Shown here in pieces: positions 4,913-13,554 of a DNA stretch of 41,980 nt. The position numbers and the translations under genes were made by a program. Under the pieces are notes generated by a model. It saw only the letters and a list, made by a program, of their open reading frames with translations. It ran no database searches and was not told the origin of the DNA. Source of the DNA: a candidate division TA06 bacterium (GTDB lineage Bacteria > Hydrothermota > DG-26 > E44-bin18); NCBI GenBank assembly GCA_004376575.1, contig SOJN01000108.1, forward strand, positions 1-41,980, written 5' to 3'. Every line of letters starts with the position of its first letter. The first letter of the stretch is position 1.

Positions 4913-5548
4913 TCAGGAGCTCTTCGTCTTGCCTTTCTTGTCTTCTCTCAAGAGCTTCTCGAATTCCCTTTCGATTCCGCCAATGGCCAACCTAACACTA
5001 CTATCGTCTATACAACCTATAGTGAAAACTGCATATGCGAATAGTCTCCGCTTCCCTTCGACGTCCTTGATGGTTCCGCCTCTCCCCACGCGGATGTATT
5101 CTCCCAGCCCCTTGATCGCGGTCGTTATGTATTCGTTTTCAACCGTAGTACCCCACCTCAGCATACCCAATCCCTTCAAGAAATGCTCAAGAGCCCGATC
5201 TGGGTCCTTGATATCGGTATCATCGACACGCCAGACCCCCAAGTCGTGTCCCAAGTCCAAGAGAGTCCGAGCCTCTAATAGTCTGAGCCGGTCTTCCAGC
5301 TCCGCGATGGCGTCCGTCTGAGCCTTCTTCAATCTTTTCCTCAGTGCGTCTACGGAGTATCGCCACTGCAAAACAGCTATCACAGCGGCTATTATAGCAA
5401 CCGAGCACGTCACCACGCCAACAAGTACGGTTAGGACTATTACAGGCACCGTCCCCAAAATCGTAAACCCTCCAGAGCTAGCATTGGCAACCACCGACGA
5501 ATCACCCACAGCCGCAACGACCACAGCAGTTGTATCAGCGAGAGACAA
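4913..5548 (-). CDS. Membrane protein with one hydrophobic segment and a coiled coil, unknown function
   Basis: The product has 211 residues. A long hydrophobic stretch (about residues 28-62) gives one, perhaps two, membrane helices. Next comes a charged helix with coiled-coil character (LRKRLKKAQTDAIAELEDRL), then a soluble domain of about 120 residues with no motif I recognise. The start is a TTG at 5548 with a strong GGAGG five to six bases upstream. The gene lies 119 bases downstream of the TIGR02391-type gene on the same strand, so the two may be a functional pair; that is inference. The C-terminus is lysine-rich and stops at a TTGTGCC-type element. Confidence 0.65.
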   Translation of the reverse strand: MSLADTTAVVVAAVGDSSVVANASSGGFTILGTVPVIVLTVLVGVVTCSVAIIAAVIAVLQWRYSVDALRKRLKKAQTDAIAELEDRLRLLEARTLLDLGHDLGVWRVDDTDIKDPDRALEHFLKGLGMLRWGTTVENEYITTAIKGLGEYIRVGRGGTIKDVEGKRRLFAYAVFTIGCIDDSSVRLAIGGIEREFEKLLREDKKGKTKSS

Positions 5549-5667
5549 TCTTGCCTCCGACAGAATCCATCTGCTTCTGCACCTCCAACGACCTACGCGG
5601 ACTCAAACTCTCATTGCACAAAATCTATGCAACACTCAAAGCAGAAATGCGCTCGATTGATTTGGTC

Positions 5668-6362: not shown

Positions 6363-6924
6363 TCAATGCGAGTGCATGGCCTCCCCGCCGACTGGCCGCA
6401 TCTGTCTACGCATTTCACCCGTCAGACTTAGGGTCAACATCCCCACGGCCTCTTGAAGATGCTGACGCAATTGTATCGTAGATCTACGATCTGAAATCTA
6501 GGATCTCGTTGCAGGAATCTAGGCTATCAGTATCTGACACAGCCATCTCCACCCCATTTCGCTTTCGTCTTGTGGCAAGGTCTTCGATATCAGTTCTGCG
6601 TTCTTAGATCTATGTGTGCCCCAGCAATTCTTGAATGGCACGTAGATTGACTCCCGCCATAACAAGATGCGAGGCGAATGTGTGGCGGAGGTCATGGAAT
6701 CTGAAATCCCTTATCCCCGCTCTTCTACAGGCAGCCCTGAATCTTTTTTGAACGCTCCCATAGGGCCTGCCATCGTCGCCACAGTATACGAAACCGCTCC
6801 GAGCATGTAAAGACAGTTTGTTGAGTTCCCTGGAGAGGCGTTCATTGATCGGGATAAACCTCCGCTCATTGTTCTTGGACCTCTCTAGGGTGATAACCTT
6901 GATTCTTAAGGAGAATCGGGACAC
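6363..6924 (-). pseudogene. Broken tyrosine recombinase A (C-terminal catalytic part, interrupted)
   Basis: Residues from about 6900 down to 6610 encode the catalytic core of a phage-type integrase: RRFIPINERL, then RAGIRDFRFHDLRHTFASHL and ELLGHT, which carry the H-x-x-R and second His positions. The frame stops directly after GHT. The remaining tail resumes near 6463 (LRQHLQEAVGML then LSLTGEM) and ends at 6363. The segment with the catalytic Tyr, visible as MTMRYSHL in the related remnant at 10511-10700, is missing and replaced by about 145 unrelated bases. The N-terminal arm and core-binding domains are also absent. The protein cannot be active. Confidence 0.85.
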
Positions 6925-9230: not shown

Positions 9231-9270
9231 CGCATGAATTTGCGAAAATCGCCCTGAATGGCATTACGAA

Positions 9271-9320
9271 CCTGCCCTGAGCGATAGTCGAAGGGTGCGT
9301 TGCCCTTCGGCAGGCTCAGG
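9271..9320. repeat. Inverted repeat of the CCTGAGC...GAAGGG type
   Basis: CCTGCCCTGAGCGATAGTCG and the reverse-oriented CCCTTCGGCAGGCTCAGG can pair. Similar GC-rich units occur at 15220-15270 and 29570-29610. It directly follows the tRNA-like remnant on the minus strand, where the 3' half of a tRNA would be expected. Confidence 0.45.
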
Positions 9321-9329
9321 ATTCATTTC

Positions 9330-9373
9330 CCGAAGATTGATAATCGGAAACTCTACCACTGAGCTACATCGGC
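9330..9373 (-). pseudogene. 5' half of a tRNA gene, 3' half missing
   Basis: Read from 9373 on the minus strand the sequence starts GCCGATGTAGCTCAGTGG and continues TAGAG, a typical tRNA acceptor strand and D arm. The following CCGA...TCGG could be an anticodon stem but has a ten-base loop. No T arm (GGTTCGAATCC) or matching 3' acceptor strand (CATCGGC) follows; an inverted repeat takes its place. It lies about 33 bases from a TTGTGCC element. A degraded integration target is likely. Confidence 0.45.
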
Positions 9374-9405
9374 GTACCAATAACTTACGCGAACTCAAAT
9401 TCCCC

Positions 9406-9423
9406 TTGTGCCATATTTGTGCC
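9406..9423 (+). repeat. Short copy of the TTGTGCC-ATAT-TTGTGCC element
   Basis: The two heptamers and spacer are perfect. It lies 65 bases beyond the stop of the RelA/SpoT-type gene and before the tRNA remnant, again at the downstream end of a module. Confidence 0.65.
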
Positions 9424-9488
9424 AGAATCCGTACGACAAATGGCTGTGAAACGTTCGTTCGGCATTGAATCTCAGCGTAAGAAAGCAC

Positions 9489-10478
9489 TCAATCTCCCCT
9501 TTGCTCCGTCTGGCTTCGGGCCTTCTCCAGTAGCTCCTGTATCCGCGGAAACACTGGGAGGGCCTTGATCTGCTCCTCAGCGATGGCAATCCCGTCCTTA
9601 ATCCCCAACCAGCCGAAACCGCCACCCAGATAGATGTGCATGTAAGGACTCAACGGCATTCCCATTAGTGACCTCGATAGGTCCCCCAGCGCCTTCCGCA
9701 CTTCCTTGTCTTGGAGAAACTTCTTTAGCTTGCTTACCGTATCTAGCCCTTGGTTTATGGCTACGACGAGACAGTCCTGCGCCTCTCCAGGAGGTATGGG
9801 CCTACCATAAAGGTCTTCAAGCATCCGGGCAACAGCCTGAACGCTGATTTGCTCCTGGGATCCCTGACCACCGATAGCCACATCCACCCTCTCGTCACAT
9901 AACTTCTGAGCGACTTTGTCAACCTCCTCTAGTTGATCTCCGAGCTTCCTCATTTTCTCCAACCAGCTATCGGGAAGATGTACGTCTGTCTTGTAGGCGT
10001 CCCTATGTGACAACGTTGCCCAAGTGTCCTGAGCAAGCGTCCGAATTTGGACTTCCACTTTGACACTCAAGGCCTGCCCCATCACGGTCACAGTTGTCTC
10101 CAATTCTGCGTGAGTCGCTCGATAGCCGTCTTCTCTGTCTATATCCTCAGAGGCTACATTTCTGAAATCGGGATGTACCGTGAGAAACGTAATAACCTCT
10201 TGAGCATGCACTTCATTATGACAGACGATTCTCACACCTGCCATGTCCTCTACCTCCTCTAGGGAGGAGTACCCTTTCTGTCTCATCTTGTCCACTGCGC
10301 TGTTCCAGTCCTTGACGCGCGTGTTGATGTAACGGATGTACGTGGCCTTGATATCTCTGAAGTAGTTCCGTAGCTCGTCTGCGACTTTGGCAGCCGCCCT
10401 CTCATAGTACGGCCTCATGGTGTTATAGGTCTGTCCGGCAACCAAATACTGCTCGAGTCCTGGTTCGTTGTTTTTCAT
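9489..10478 (-). CDS. RelA/SpoT-domain nucleotide synthetase (small alarmone synthetase-like)
   Basis: The product has 329 residues. Residues 45-165 form a RelA_SpoT synthetase domain: R-x-K-x3-S-x3-K (R54, K56, S60, K64), the metal-binding Asp in EDMAGVRIVC (D78), GYRATH (Y119) and VEVQIRT with Glu 142, so the catalytic set appears complete. There is no HD hydrolase domain and no TGS/ACT region. A C-terminal extension of about 150 residues is helical and not recognised. Such proteins make (p)ppGpp, and some relatives act as toxins or phage-defence effectors. The ATG at 10478 with AGGA upstream is preferred to the TTG at 10520, which overlaps a recombinase tail. No obvious antitoxin gene is adjacent. 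Confidence 0.85.
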   Translation of the reverse strand: MKNNEPGLEQYLVAGQTYNTMRPYYERAAAKVADELRNYFRDIKATYIRYINTRVKDWNSAVDKMRQKGYSSLEEVEDMAGVRIVCHNEVHAQEVITFLTVHPDFRNVASEDIDREDGYRATHAELETTVTVMGQALSVKVEVQIRTLAQDTWATLSHRDAYKTDVHLPDSWLEKMRKLGDQLEEVDKVAQKLCDERVDVAIGGQGSQEQISVQAVARMLEDLYGRPIPPGEAQDCLVVAINQGLDTVSKLKKFLQDKEVRKALGDLSRSLMGMPLSPYMHIYLGGGFGWLGIKDGIAIAEEQIKALPVFPRIQELLEKARSQTEQRGD

Positions 10479-10510: not shown

Positions 10511-10700
10511 CTACACCCAAGGCTCCGAATGTAACCTAACGGAGTCTATCTGCTTTTCCATCTCTCCTGTGAGGCTCAGGCTCAACATCCCCACTGCCTC
10601 TTGAAGATGCTGGCGTGAGAGATGTGAGTAGCGCATTGTCATTTTGATATCCTTATGCCCGAGTAACTCCTGAACGGCACGGAGGTTTACGCCGGCCGCC
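10511..10700 (-). pseudogene. Tyrosine recombinase B remnant (C-terminal 60 residues)
   Basis: The frame encodes AAGVNLRAVQELLGHKDIK, then MTMRYSHLSRQHL and a tail to a stop at 10511-10513. It holds the final conserved His and the catalytic Tyr of an integrase but lacks the Arg-containing core and everything before it. The tail is very like that of remnant A (QHLQEAVGML then LSLTGEM). It ends 33 bases before the start of the RelA/SpoT-type gene. Confidence 0.85.
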
Positions 10701-10745: not shown

Positions 10746-11570
10746 CTAGGCCTCTCCCGGGGACTCAGTCTCCTCAACAGCCGACTCTTCAGGAGCTGTT
10801 GCGTCCGGAGAAGATTTCTTGGGTTTTCTCTTCCTCTTTCGTGGCTTCCCGCTAGGCAGAGCTACCCGCACATTTTCCAGTTCTCCCAATGCCGCCTCGT
10901 TCAGCATCCGCCGGACACCAGACACAATGTCCTCTGGGGAAAGGAGAATTCCTGAGTCCTTTCGTAGCTCTCGTCTCAATAGTCTGAGCGAATTCTCAGA
11001 TAACATTGCTTCTAGTAGATTACGAGGATTTAACACGTTTGTCTTCTGCCAGACCTGATCGAGCTTGCCTTTCTTCACGCTTCTGTGTGATATTAGCTCG
11101 AAACGTCGCGCAAGACCTGAGACATCATCCACAGCAAGGTTCCAAGAATGAATGAGCTTGGTTACCGGAGGTTGCCCAAAAGATACGTGGTGAAGTTGCC
11201 ATTCTTTGCCATTGGTCAATAGTATCCATTCACACCCTGCGTCTATTGCGTAGGATGAGACCTGCCGAAGATGCTTTCGGCTCAGATCAACATTCACCCG
11301 TTTGATTTCAAGCATTATTACGGGTTTCGCTTCCTCGCCTTCTTCAACTTGTAATGTGAAATCAACGTGTTCAGTTTCACCAGCACCTCTTATTGCGCGT
11401 TCCCGTGAGATATGCTTGAAGGCATCGTATCCCATCAGAGACTCCAGCACCCGTTCGATACGTCGACGAGTTTCAGCTTCGTTACAGTCTGCTTTTTCCG
11501 CTTGCTGAATCGTGCGTCGAGCGTCAAGGATAGAACGGCGAACTTCTTTATCTACCTTTGCACGAGGCAT
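10746..11570 (-). CDS. Orphan HsdR N-terminal-type PD-(D/E)xK nuclease domain protein
   Basis: The 274-residue product resembles the N-terminal nuclease domain of type I restriction enzyme R subunits (HSDR_N and HSDR_N_2 families). Visible signature: Glu 34 in the first helix, Asp 70 in HVDFTL, and E88-x-K90 in IMLEIKR, followed by a Gln-containing helix (LRQVSSYA) and WILLTNGKEWQLH. There is no helicase or methyltransferase gene nearby. The C-terminus is basic (KPRKRKRKPKK) and then acidic. The ATG at 11570 has GGAAGGAG six bases upstream, better than the longer frame to 11636. Likely a DNA-binding or DNA-cutting stand-alone protein, perhaps in defence; activity is not shown. Confidence 0.75.
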   Translation of the reverse strand: MPRAKVDKEVRRSILDARRTIQQAEKADCNEAETRRRIERVLESLMGYDAFKHISRERAIRGAGETEHVDFTLQVEEGEEAKPVIMLEIKRVNVDLSRKHLRQVSSYAIDAGCEWILLTNGKEWQLHHVSFGQPPVTKLIHSWNLAVDDVSGLARRFELISHRSVKKGKLDQVWQKTNVLNPRNLLEAMLSENSLRLLRRELRKDSGILLSPEDIVSGVRRMLNEAALGELENVRVALPSGKPRKRKRKPKKSSPDATAPEESAVEETESPGEA

Positions 11571-11639
11571 ATGAGACTCCTTCCTTTTAATCGGTTGACA
11601 ACACGCCCCAACGCGCCCTCCTCTTCTAGTGGTCACATA

Positions 11640-12112: not shown

Positions 12113-12448
12113 ATGCATATAGACTTTAAGAATCAGAAGCTGAGAAAGATATTCAATTCCCGAGAGAAATTGCAGAAGAATTACGGTAAACACATGGCGC
12201 AGGTCATAAAAAGGCGTATGATGATTCTAAATGCTGCACCAAATCTGGAAGATGTATGTCATCTTCCACCAGAAAGAAGGCATGAGCTCGTGGGCAGAAG
12301 AAAGGGAACTTTCGCAGTAGACCTACAGCATCCGAAGAGGCTTGTTTTTAGACCAGCGCACCATCCGATACCCCGAAAGAAAGATAAGGGCATCGATTTC
12401 AAAAAAGTCACTGCAATAACCATTTTAGGCGTGGAGGACTATCACTGA
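12113..12448 (+). CDS. higB: HigB-type toxin, RelE/ParE superfamily
   Basis: The 111-residue product fits the longer HigB-like killer-protein family: MHIDFKNQKLRKIFNS, RMMILNAAPNLEDV, PPERRHELVGRRKG, FAVDLQHPKRLVF and the closing KVTAITILGVEDYH. Members cut mRNA in the ribosome or otherwise stop translation, and are held in check by the partner. The ATG at 12113 fits the family start, although no Shine-Dalgarno sequence is seen; the transcript may be nearly leaderless. The stop codon overlaps the antitoxin ATG by one base, giving the toxin-first order usual for higBA. Confidence 0.9.
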   Translation: MHIDFKNQKLRKIFNSREKLQKNYGKHMAQVIKRRMMILNAAPNLEDVCHLPPERRHELVGRRKGTFAVDLQHPKRLVFRPAHHPIPRKKDKGIDFKKVTAITILGVEDYH

Positions 12449-13554
12449 TGGCGGGCACAATTGTGGATCAGTTCGACCCCGACTATGCGGTCCATCCGGG
12501 CGAAATCCTCGAGGAGACACTCGAGGCGCGGGGGATGAAGAAGACCTCCTTTGCGGTGCGGTGCGGCCTTTCGGCAAAAACCGTAAGCCAGATAATAAGC
12601 GGCAAAGCCCCTGTTACCCCAGAGACGGCCATACAGTTTGAGCGGGTGCTTGGTGTGTCGGCGGCAGTGTGGAGCAACCTTAACACCTTTTACGACCTCC
12701 ATATGGCTCGAGTATCCGCACGGAAAAGGCTCGAAAAACAGGTGAGATGGGCAAAGAGTTTTCCGCTTACGGAACTCGTTAGAAGAGGGATAATTGAGAA
12801 ACCAACTAACGCGGTTGATGCTGTCGAGAAATTGCTCAATTTCCTCGGCGTAGGCTCTGTTGATGCATGGCAAGAACGACAACAGCAACTTGTGGAGGCG
12901 TCGGTTGCTTATAGGCATTCACCTTCATTTGAGAGCGCTCCAGAATCCGTGGCCGTCTGGCTGAGGGTTGGGATAATTCGCGCCGCGCGTATTGACGCCC
13001 GCCCCTACAGCAAAGCCAAGTTCAAGAGCGCTCTGGAAGAAATAAGGACAGTGACTTCCCAGCCGGCAAAGGTTTTCGGCCCGAAAATGAAGGAGCTGTG
13101 CCGTCAGGCAGGGGTCGCCCTCGTATTTGTTTCTGAATTCCCTGGGACGCATCTAAGCGGAGCTACGTGTTGGTTGAATAAGGACAAGGCGCTCATATTG
13201 TTGAGCCTTCGTCATAAGCGCGATGACCACCTGTGGTTCAGTTTCTACCATGAGGCAGCACATGTCCTTCTTCATGGCAAGAAGAAGGTCTTCCTTGATG
13301 AAACAAAAAGAATGCAAGGTGGTATGGAGAGTAAGGCAGATAGCTTCGCGGCCAACGCACTCATTCCTGAGCGTGACTACTTGGCTTTCGTTTCACAGGA
13401 ACGCTTCAGCAAGAACAGTATTATGATATTTGCCAAGAGGATCGGCATTGCGCCAGGGATAGTAGTGGGAAGACTTCAGCATGATGGGAAGATCCCACAT
13501 TGGTGGCACAACGATCTGAAACGCGGGCTTAGGTTGGTTGAGACCACGGAATAA
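12448..13554 (+). CDS. higA: HigA-type antitoxin with XRE helix-turn-helix and ImmA/IrrE-like metallopeptidase domain
   Basis: Residues 14-75 form a HigA-type HTH (HPGEILEETLEARGM, SAKTVSQIISGK). The C-terminal half is an ImmA/IrrE-like peptidase domain with HEAAH at 268-272 and a likely third zinc ligand in ESKADSFAANALIP (about 294-298). At 368 residues it is far longer than the simple HigA of about 100 residues, and matches the known HTH-plus-peptidase class. It should neutralise HigB and repress the operon; the peptidase could cleave a regulator or itself. It follows higB with a one-base TGATG overlap, implying coupled translation. Confidence 0.9.
   Translation: MAGTIVDQFDPDYAVHPGEILEETLEARGMKKTSFAVRCGLSAKTVSQIISGKAPVTPETAIQFERVLGVSAAVWSNLNTFYDLHMARVSARKRLEKQVRWAKSFPLTELVRRGIIEKPTNAVDAVEKLLNFLGVGSVDAWQERQQQLVEASVAYRHSPSFESAPESVAVWLRVGIIRAARIDARPYSKAKFKSALEEIRTVTSQPAKVFGPKMKELCRQAGVALVFVSEFPGTHLSGATCWLNKDKALILLSLRHKRDDHLWFSFYHEAAHVLLHGKKKVFLDETKRMQGGMESKADSFAANALIPERDYLAFVSQERFSKNSIMIFAKRIGIAPGIVVGRLQHDGKIPHWWHNDLKRGLRLVETTE

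Follow-up and report, generated by a model that had tools for sequence, protein, structure and literature searches.

The window, a stretch of 41,980 nucleotides on contig SOJN01000108.1 of a candidate division TA06 bacterium, carries an intact gene for a stand-alone alarmone synthetase (SAS; protein P0001), which confirms the preliminary description of this locus (Table 1). Upstream of the ATG, CCAGGACACTATT contains an AGGA that by eye is plausible as a ribosome site; if the frame is instead started at a TTG, it spans 343 residues. The stop-free run at this position is 348 codons, whereas 300 simulations of this 3.2 kb under a first-order Markov model reach at most 241, and the GC content by codon position (0.594/0.364/0.612) looks coding.

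Table 1. Features of the SAS locus, in window coordinates.
Feature	Position	Strand	Remarks
Second recombinase remnant, two pieces	6396..6464 + 6616..6909	-	Recombinase similarity
Att-like piece resembling a tRNA D-arm (5' tRNA half)	9351..9367	-	Found by pattern, <=2 mismatches
11-bp-period direct repeat TTGTGCCATATTTGTGCC	9406..9423	+	54 matches in the genome
SAS gene (P0001)	9489..10478	-	329 aa, ATG start, TGA stop
Extension beyond the SAS fold	9492..9893	-	Residues 196-329; RelP/RelQ structures align to ~200-204
Predicted helical core of the extension	9663..9842	-	Residues 213-272, four helices predicted twice
SYNTH (RelA_SpoT) domain of P0001	9984..10322	-	Residues 53-165, PF04607, catalytic residues intact
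Tyrosine recombinase C-terminal remnant	10541..10696	-	Residues 305-356 of recombinase P0003, 69% identical; directly upstream of SAS
HSDR_N_2 gene (type I restriction R-subunit N-terminus)	10746..11636	-	296 aa; PF13588, 40.7 bits; upstream neighbour of SAS
HigB-like toxin gene (weak match)	12113..12448	+	PF05015, E 4e-4, 21.2 bits (cut-off 27)
HigA/IrrE-type antitoxin gene	12448..13554	+	PADLOC PD-Lambda-2_B match, E 2.4e-38

The SYNTH domain matches PF04607 at 68.3 bits (E = 8.7e-19; cut-off 27), and Pfam gives no match to a hydrolase (HD) domain in P0001, as expected of the stand-alone synthetase without a hydrolase domain proposed earlier. The catalytic residues read from the sequence at that stage (R-x-K-x3-S-x3-K, D78, Y119 and E142) are all present: when P0001 is aligned with 19 other SAS (20 sequences), R54, K56, S60, K64, D78, Y119 and E142 are invariant. 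P0001 thus has what defines a SAS within the RSH superfamily, namely SYNTH without HD and with intact catalytic residues. By eye, its acceptor-side motif departs from the GYxSxH found in all 11 ordinary SAS of the alignment, reading GYRATH; it is GYRGHH in the paralogue P0002, which departs likewise, and GYSGIH in CapRel.

By sequence, the SYNTH domain of P0001 is closest to RelP, RelQ and YwaC, which share its donor and catalytic residues and have the nearest fold. Matches of P0001 in the PDB are RelP, RelQ and YwaC-type chains (E = 8.8e-18 to 2.5e-12), with neither CapRel nor FaRel2 among them at E <= 1; P0002 alone retrieves only RelP/RelQ-type chains at E <= 10, and a two-sequence profile of P0001 and P0002 reaches FaRel2 only at E = 0.1. 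The kinship with toxSAS or CapRel that the preliminary description had suggested is not borne out. RelP (6ewz_A) aligns to the P0001 model with Z 22.4 over 190 residues at rmsd 1.7, and CapRel (7ztb_B) with Z 14.2 over 182 residues at rmsd 3.2; Z falls from about 22 (RelP/RelQ) to 16.0 (best long Rel), 12.2 (Tas1) and 8.0 (FaRel2), a ranking that leans toward RelP/RelQ because the alignment behind the model is mostly ordinary SAS. A Foldseek search of the PDB with the whole model likewise places RelP/RelQ first, CapRel following at E = 8e-7 over 312 columns with rmsd 19. P0001 (73.8 bits) and P0002 (62 bits) both lie below the cut-off of 320 of the RelQ/YjbM equivalog NF053588, and RelP, RelQ and YwaC differ from P0001 in that the chains hit, of 209 to 255 residues, have no extension.

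A maximum-likelihood tree built from 29 SYNTH domains joins P0001 to P0002 (91.8/96) and places the pair outside the 11 ordinary SAS (95.3/96), apart from CapRel and from the tailed SAS of phages and plasmids; CapRel itself sits on a very long branch whose own place is weak (52.8/80). Membership in the PADLOC PDC-S33 group at first looked supported by E = 2e-16 and was ruled out by controls. PDC-S33 is in effect a CapRel model, matching CapRel SJ46 from residue 11 to 370 at 290 bits; in P0001 it covers residues 10 to 155 only, within the synthetase part, at 58.3 bits, and two ordinary SAS score 86.9 and 77.9. No paper in the literature searched names this model. CapRel resembles P0001 in joining an N-terminal SYNTH domain and a C-terminal extension in one polypeptide and in its mobile-element setting, but its tail is described as a pseudo-zinc-finger (PMC9712102) carrying YXXY, the neutralisation motif of its C-terminal domain (PMC9712102, PMC11782079), and PDC-S33 matches it over its whole length. 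The tail of P0001 has no YXXY: the sole occurrence lies at residues 47 to 50, in the SYNTH region, while the CapRel control shows the motif at 352 to 355. A YRKY at residue 278 in the tail of P0002 is not conserved in P0001.

The helical extension of about 150 residues in the preliminary description stands as to its helices, which are predicted twice, and shrinks to about 135 residues. Residues 170 to 203 form a long helix that RelP and RelQ also have, and because their structures align only up to about residue 200 to 204, the extra part of P0001 comprises some 130 to 135 residues. A full-length AlphaFold2 model (mean pLDDT 76.5, with block means of 66 to 75 across residues 211 to 270) predicts four core helices at 213-224, 230-242, 248-256 and 258-272. 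Prediction of the extension alone (residues 186 to 329, no alignment) gives the same limits for the first three and 258-270 for the fourth, at a mean pLDDT of 59. The tail is thus predicted to be helical with moderate to low confidence, and the full-length model has no strand longer than two residues there. The tail matches neither TPR nor any other Pfam family above cut-off; TPR was sought in P0001 and P0002 with no match at E <= 1, a search in which HMMER filters can drop weak repeats. No PDB fold matches the tail (best E 1.2), which is not evidence of a new fold because the tail model is of low confidence. Twelve viral structures match the whole model at E <= 0.001 (best E 3.2e-9, rmsd 13.9), none of them useful for the tail.

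The tails of P0001 and P0002 may be homologous. The BLASTP alignment of the two proteins runs through both tails; aligned by themselves, the tails give a Smith-Waterman score of 40, which 20 of 1000 shuffles attain, and an hhalign E of 0.052.

Tailed SAS recur on mobile DNA elsewhere, including a Mycobacterium abscessus prophage (gp42, QSM02018.1), a filamentous Vibrio phage and small plasmids. One is among four annotated genes of a 3.5-kb Klebsiella plasmid (436-1572 of the fetched stretch) and another is a gene of the 8-kb Vibrio phage (6571-7581 of the fetched stretch). These proteins resemble P0001 in having a stand-alone SYNTH domain and a tail of about 100 residues or more on mobile DNA; they differ in belonging to other SYNTH branches and, by eye, in having residues inserted ahead of the catalytic E motif. 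The SYNTH part of P0001 also matches three phage protein families of 330 to 365 residues and unknown function. A tail pattern common to P0001 and the phage and plasmid SAS can be drawn by eye (two helices, Y/F then often P, a turn and a third helix). We tried a shared tail as a candidate and rejected it, as shuffled sequences score as high and the homology is not significant. A profile of ten phage and plasmid tails, two of them nearly identical, was matched or beaten by 27 of 500 shuffles for P0001 and 392 of 500 for P0002 when tails were taken from residue 196, and by 33 and 232 of 500, respectively, from residue 180. With hhalign, the two-sequence tail profile reached a best E of 0.033 against 11 groups, and one of 60 column shuffles scored higher. 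Profile searches of genome contigs found no relatives with model A2 and 34 loci with model A3, which record titles assign to Bacillota-type sources (30), Mycetocola (3) and Kiritimatiellae (1). Searches of viral contigs gave three loci with A3 and none with A2, the prophage protein or P0001. None of the matches at these 34 and three loci enters the P0001 tail past about residue 206.

The SAS gene lies on a decayed integrase/tRNA island, as the earlier reading of an accessory gene on a mobile-element remnant held. Along the minus strand, a recombinase remnant (10696-10541) is followed by the SAS gene (10478-9489), a copy of the repeat (9423-9406) and a tRNA piece (9367-9351); together with the second recombinase remnant (6396-6909), these account for the recombinase remnants and att-like elements reported before. 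There is no intact tRNA in the window. The repeat TTGTGCCATATTTGTGCC has six matches in the window, at 1781, 2973, 4891, 8550 (minus strand), 9114 and 9406, against 0.03 expected at up to three mismatches, and 54 in the genome at the same tolerance with tandem phases counted apart; the reversed control has none. In the window plus 20 fetched stretches, which contain 13 D-arm-like pieces, 11 of the 44 repeats have such a piece within 200 bp and the other 33 do not, by this pattern. The starts of repeat and D-arm are exactly 164 bp apart at six sites, 163 at one and 53 to 55 at three, as would be seen if att junctions came in two recurrent types.

Matches to the tyrosine recombinase family of P0003 number 19 across the genome, and identity is only 30% in two of these. 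A single match, on contig C141, is intact, and 12 are C-terminal pieces from residue 279 or later. Several fragments start or end near codon 310 to 322 of the intact copy, including those at 6393-6918 and 10541-10696 in the window, which would fit a break point within the coding sequence of the recombinase. On C141 a stand-alone hydrolase (SAH) comes directly after the intact recombinase. As a recombinase precedes the SAS in the window and the SAH on C141, both are the next gene downstream of one recombinase family, on different contigs.

The defence-type genes noted near the SAS are indeed present, as the HSDR_N_2 gene and a HigB/HigA-type pair with a PD-Lambda-2_B match that begins 1.6 kb beyond the SAS start. 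No antitoxin or SAH gene adjoining the SAS was recognised among the open reading frames of at least 60 residues, a search that an unfamiliar small antitoxin would escape, and the remark that no antitoxin gene is apparent thus holds for the frames listed. A 74-residue frame at 9264-9488 runs through the repeat and the tRNA piece.

In the genome to which the window belongs (3.0 Mb in 150 contigs, 97.4% complete), SYNTH is matched twice, by P0001 and by P0002 on contig C8, and HD_4 once, by the SAH on C141 (E = 1.6e-23). No long Rel was detected among these SYNTH and HD_4 matches. P0002 has 351 residues, a tail of similar size, and 27% identity to P0001 over 302 aligned columns including the tail; S60 is not conserved in it. 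Its gene lies near DUF6602 and HNH genes on C8, where 8 kb contain neither a recombinase match nor the 11-bp-period repeat. A frame of 89 residues (5300-5566 of the fetched C8 stretch) overlaps the P0002 stop by four bases (ATGA) and has no Pfam, NCBIfam or PADLOC match; it may resemble a Cas2/SinR-type small protein.

SYNTH is sparse across the phylum, occurring in 14 of 147 genomes including this one; the PF04607 search works, since it finds SYNTH in 11 of 14 control genomes. In six of the 14, from two families, the domain lies in open frames of 627 to 798 residues (E = 2e-43 to 7e-46) that are probably long Rel proteins. In one genome a frame of about 1000 residues joins SYNTH to what by eye are TPR-like repeats and a LOG-like domain. 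In the nearest relative, of the same order, SYNTH is present only in a frame that by eye resembles a phage portal/MuF-type protein, and in one relative of the same class it was not found. HD_4 occurs in 3 of 60 genomes of the phylum, among which this genome alone has both domains. A joint model of P0001 and P0002 gives full-length matches only here; four other genomes of the 147 match it partly, outside the tail. The preliminary description had named a housekeeping SAS clade with the same extension at core-genome loci as the finding that would speak against a toxin or infection sensor; across the 147 genomes the extension occurs at two accessory-looking loci, both in this genome.

The closest described arrangement to this genome is that of Treponema denticola. 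The published description gives it no long RSH, a SAS whose helical C-terminal TPR domain acts as a brake that lowers synthesis, and a separate SAH (PMC10434055), and a 2011 survey presents it as the only bacterium then identified without Rel but with SAS and SAH, seemingly gained by transfer (PMC3153485). By title and abstract, none of the other papers listed in our literature search deals with such an arrangement. Tde-SAS and Tde-SAH (DsRel 'SAS-TPR' with an ActSpo2 hydrolase) share with our case a SYNTH domain followed by a helical C-terminal domain, a Rel-less genome and a separate hydrolase (PMC10434055). Of the features of the DsRel/SAS-TPR type, the Rel-less genome with a separate SAH is seen here, at 97.4% completeness, and the C-terminal TPR is not: the Tde-SAS tail is a TPR domain of about 180 residues, compared here by its description only (PMC10434055), whereas that of P0001 has about 135 residues and no TPR or other Pfam match above cut-off.

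With moderate confidence, we favor the explanation that P0001 arrived by horizontal transfer, is a SAS of the (p)ppGpp type whose tail serves in cis as brake and sensor, and works with P0002 and the C141 hydrolase. Its similarity to RelP and RelQ suggests that the catalytic core most likely uses ATP to pyrophosphorylate GDP or GTP at the 3'-OH, with (p)ppGpp as the probable product. By analogy with Tde-SAS, and from its position, the helical tail would most likely act in cis as a brake and sensor, released by some ligand or partner; the cis-acting control raised in the preliminary description thus appears reasonable. In a genome without Rel, P0001 would work with its paralogue P0002 on C8, and we infer that the stand-alone hydrolase on C141 clears its product and forms a functional pair with it. 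Several findings count against this explanation: the unusual GYRATH/GYRGHH motif, the absence of S60 in P0002, the location of SAS and SAH on different contigs, the lack of a recombinase or repeat on C8, and a tail that matches no Pfam family above cut-off and no PDB fold. The defence-type neighbours fit a rival explanation equally.

That rival is an anti-phage effector acting by abortive infection, in which the helical tail would sense infection and free the synthetase, and growth would stop through alarmone overproduction or tRNA modification; such a protein would work like CapRel without belonging to its family. The setting is suggestive, with restriction-type and PD-Lambda-2-like genes on the island, the sister gene near DUF6602 and HNH genes, and no recognisable linked antitoxin. 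Tailed SAS on the M. abscessus prophage, the filamentous Vibrio phage and small plasmids, and the SYNTH matches to phage families of 330 to 365 residues, point the same way, and the rarity of SYNTH and HD_4 in the phylum fits a defence gene too. However, the SYNTH domain is not CapRel-like, the tail has neither YXXY nor a predicted strand of three or more residues, PDC-S33 matches ordinary SAS as well, and homology to the phage and plasmid tails is not demonstrable, 27 of 500 shuffles scoring as high. We consider an anti-phage role possible rather than probable, and keep it in view because the GYRATH/GYRGHH motifs are unusual, P0002 lacks S60 and the setting is defence-like. We find it likelier that P0001 is a component of signalling taken up from elsewhere than that it is an anti-virus toxin.

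The shared position of SAS and SAH, each just downstream of a recombinase of one family, would also suit a split addiction pair, in which the SAS is a toxin and the SAH, on another island of the same integrase family, its trans-acting antidote, so that the islands guard each other from loss. The 2011 survey notes that a SAS can be toxic if expressed in a cell without a hydrolase (PMC3153485), and a toxSAS with a cognate SAH antitoxin has been described (PMC10434055). We regard this arrangement as unlikely: the two genes are on different contigs, only 1 of 60 genomes (this one) has both domains, and a relA spoT strain of E. coli is reported to have regained growth with Tde-SAS, with no toxic effects (PMC10434055). 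Moreover, only 52 codons remain of the recombinase upstream of the SAS, so the island could hardly move by itself. Although the recombinase and tRNA pieces around the SAS are likewise remnants, an idle, intact-looking gene left as passenger DNA by a decayed element is very unlikely given the full-length frame, the complete catalytic residues, a codon-position GC that looks coding, and a second, diverged copy (P0002) that is also an open frame.

The favored explanation, a borrowed (p)ppGpp-type SAS under the control of its own tail, could be extended to a mobile split stringent response, in which one family of tRNA-targeting integrative elements separately brought a SAS with a helical control domain of a new kind and the matching hydrolase into a Rel-less lineage, and growth control came to depend on acquired island genes that answer to a signal of their own; we offer this extension as a doubtful, speculative one. 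Bacteria without Rel that have only a stand-alone synthetase and hydrolase have hardly been described. If P0001 is instead a defence effector, its sensor would be of a type unrelated to that of CapRel. If this genome does use its island-borne SAS and SAH, it would illustrate how a lineage can acquire alarmone control stepwise, with the tail as a new regulatory input.
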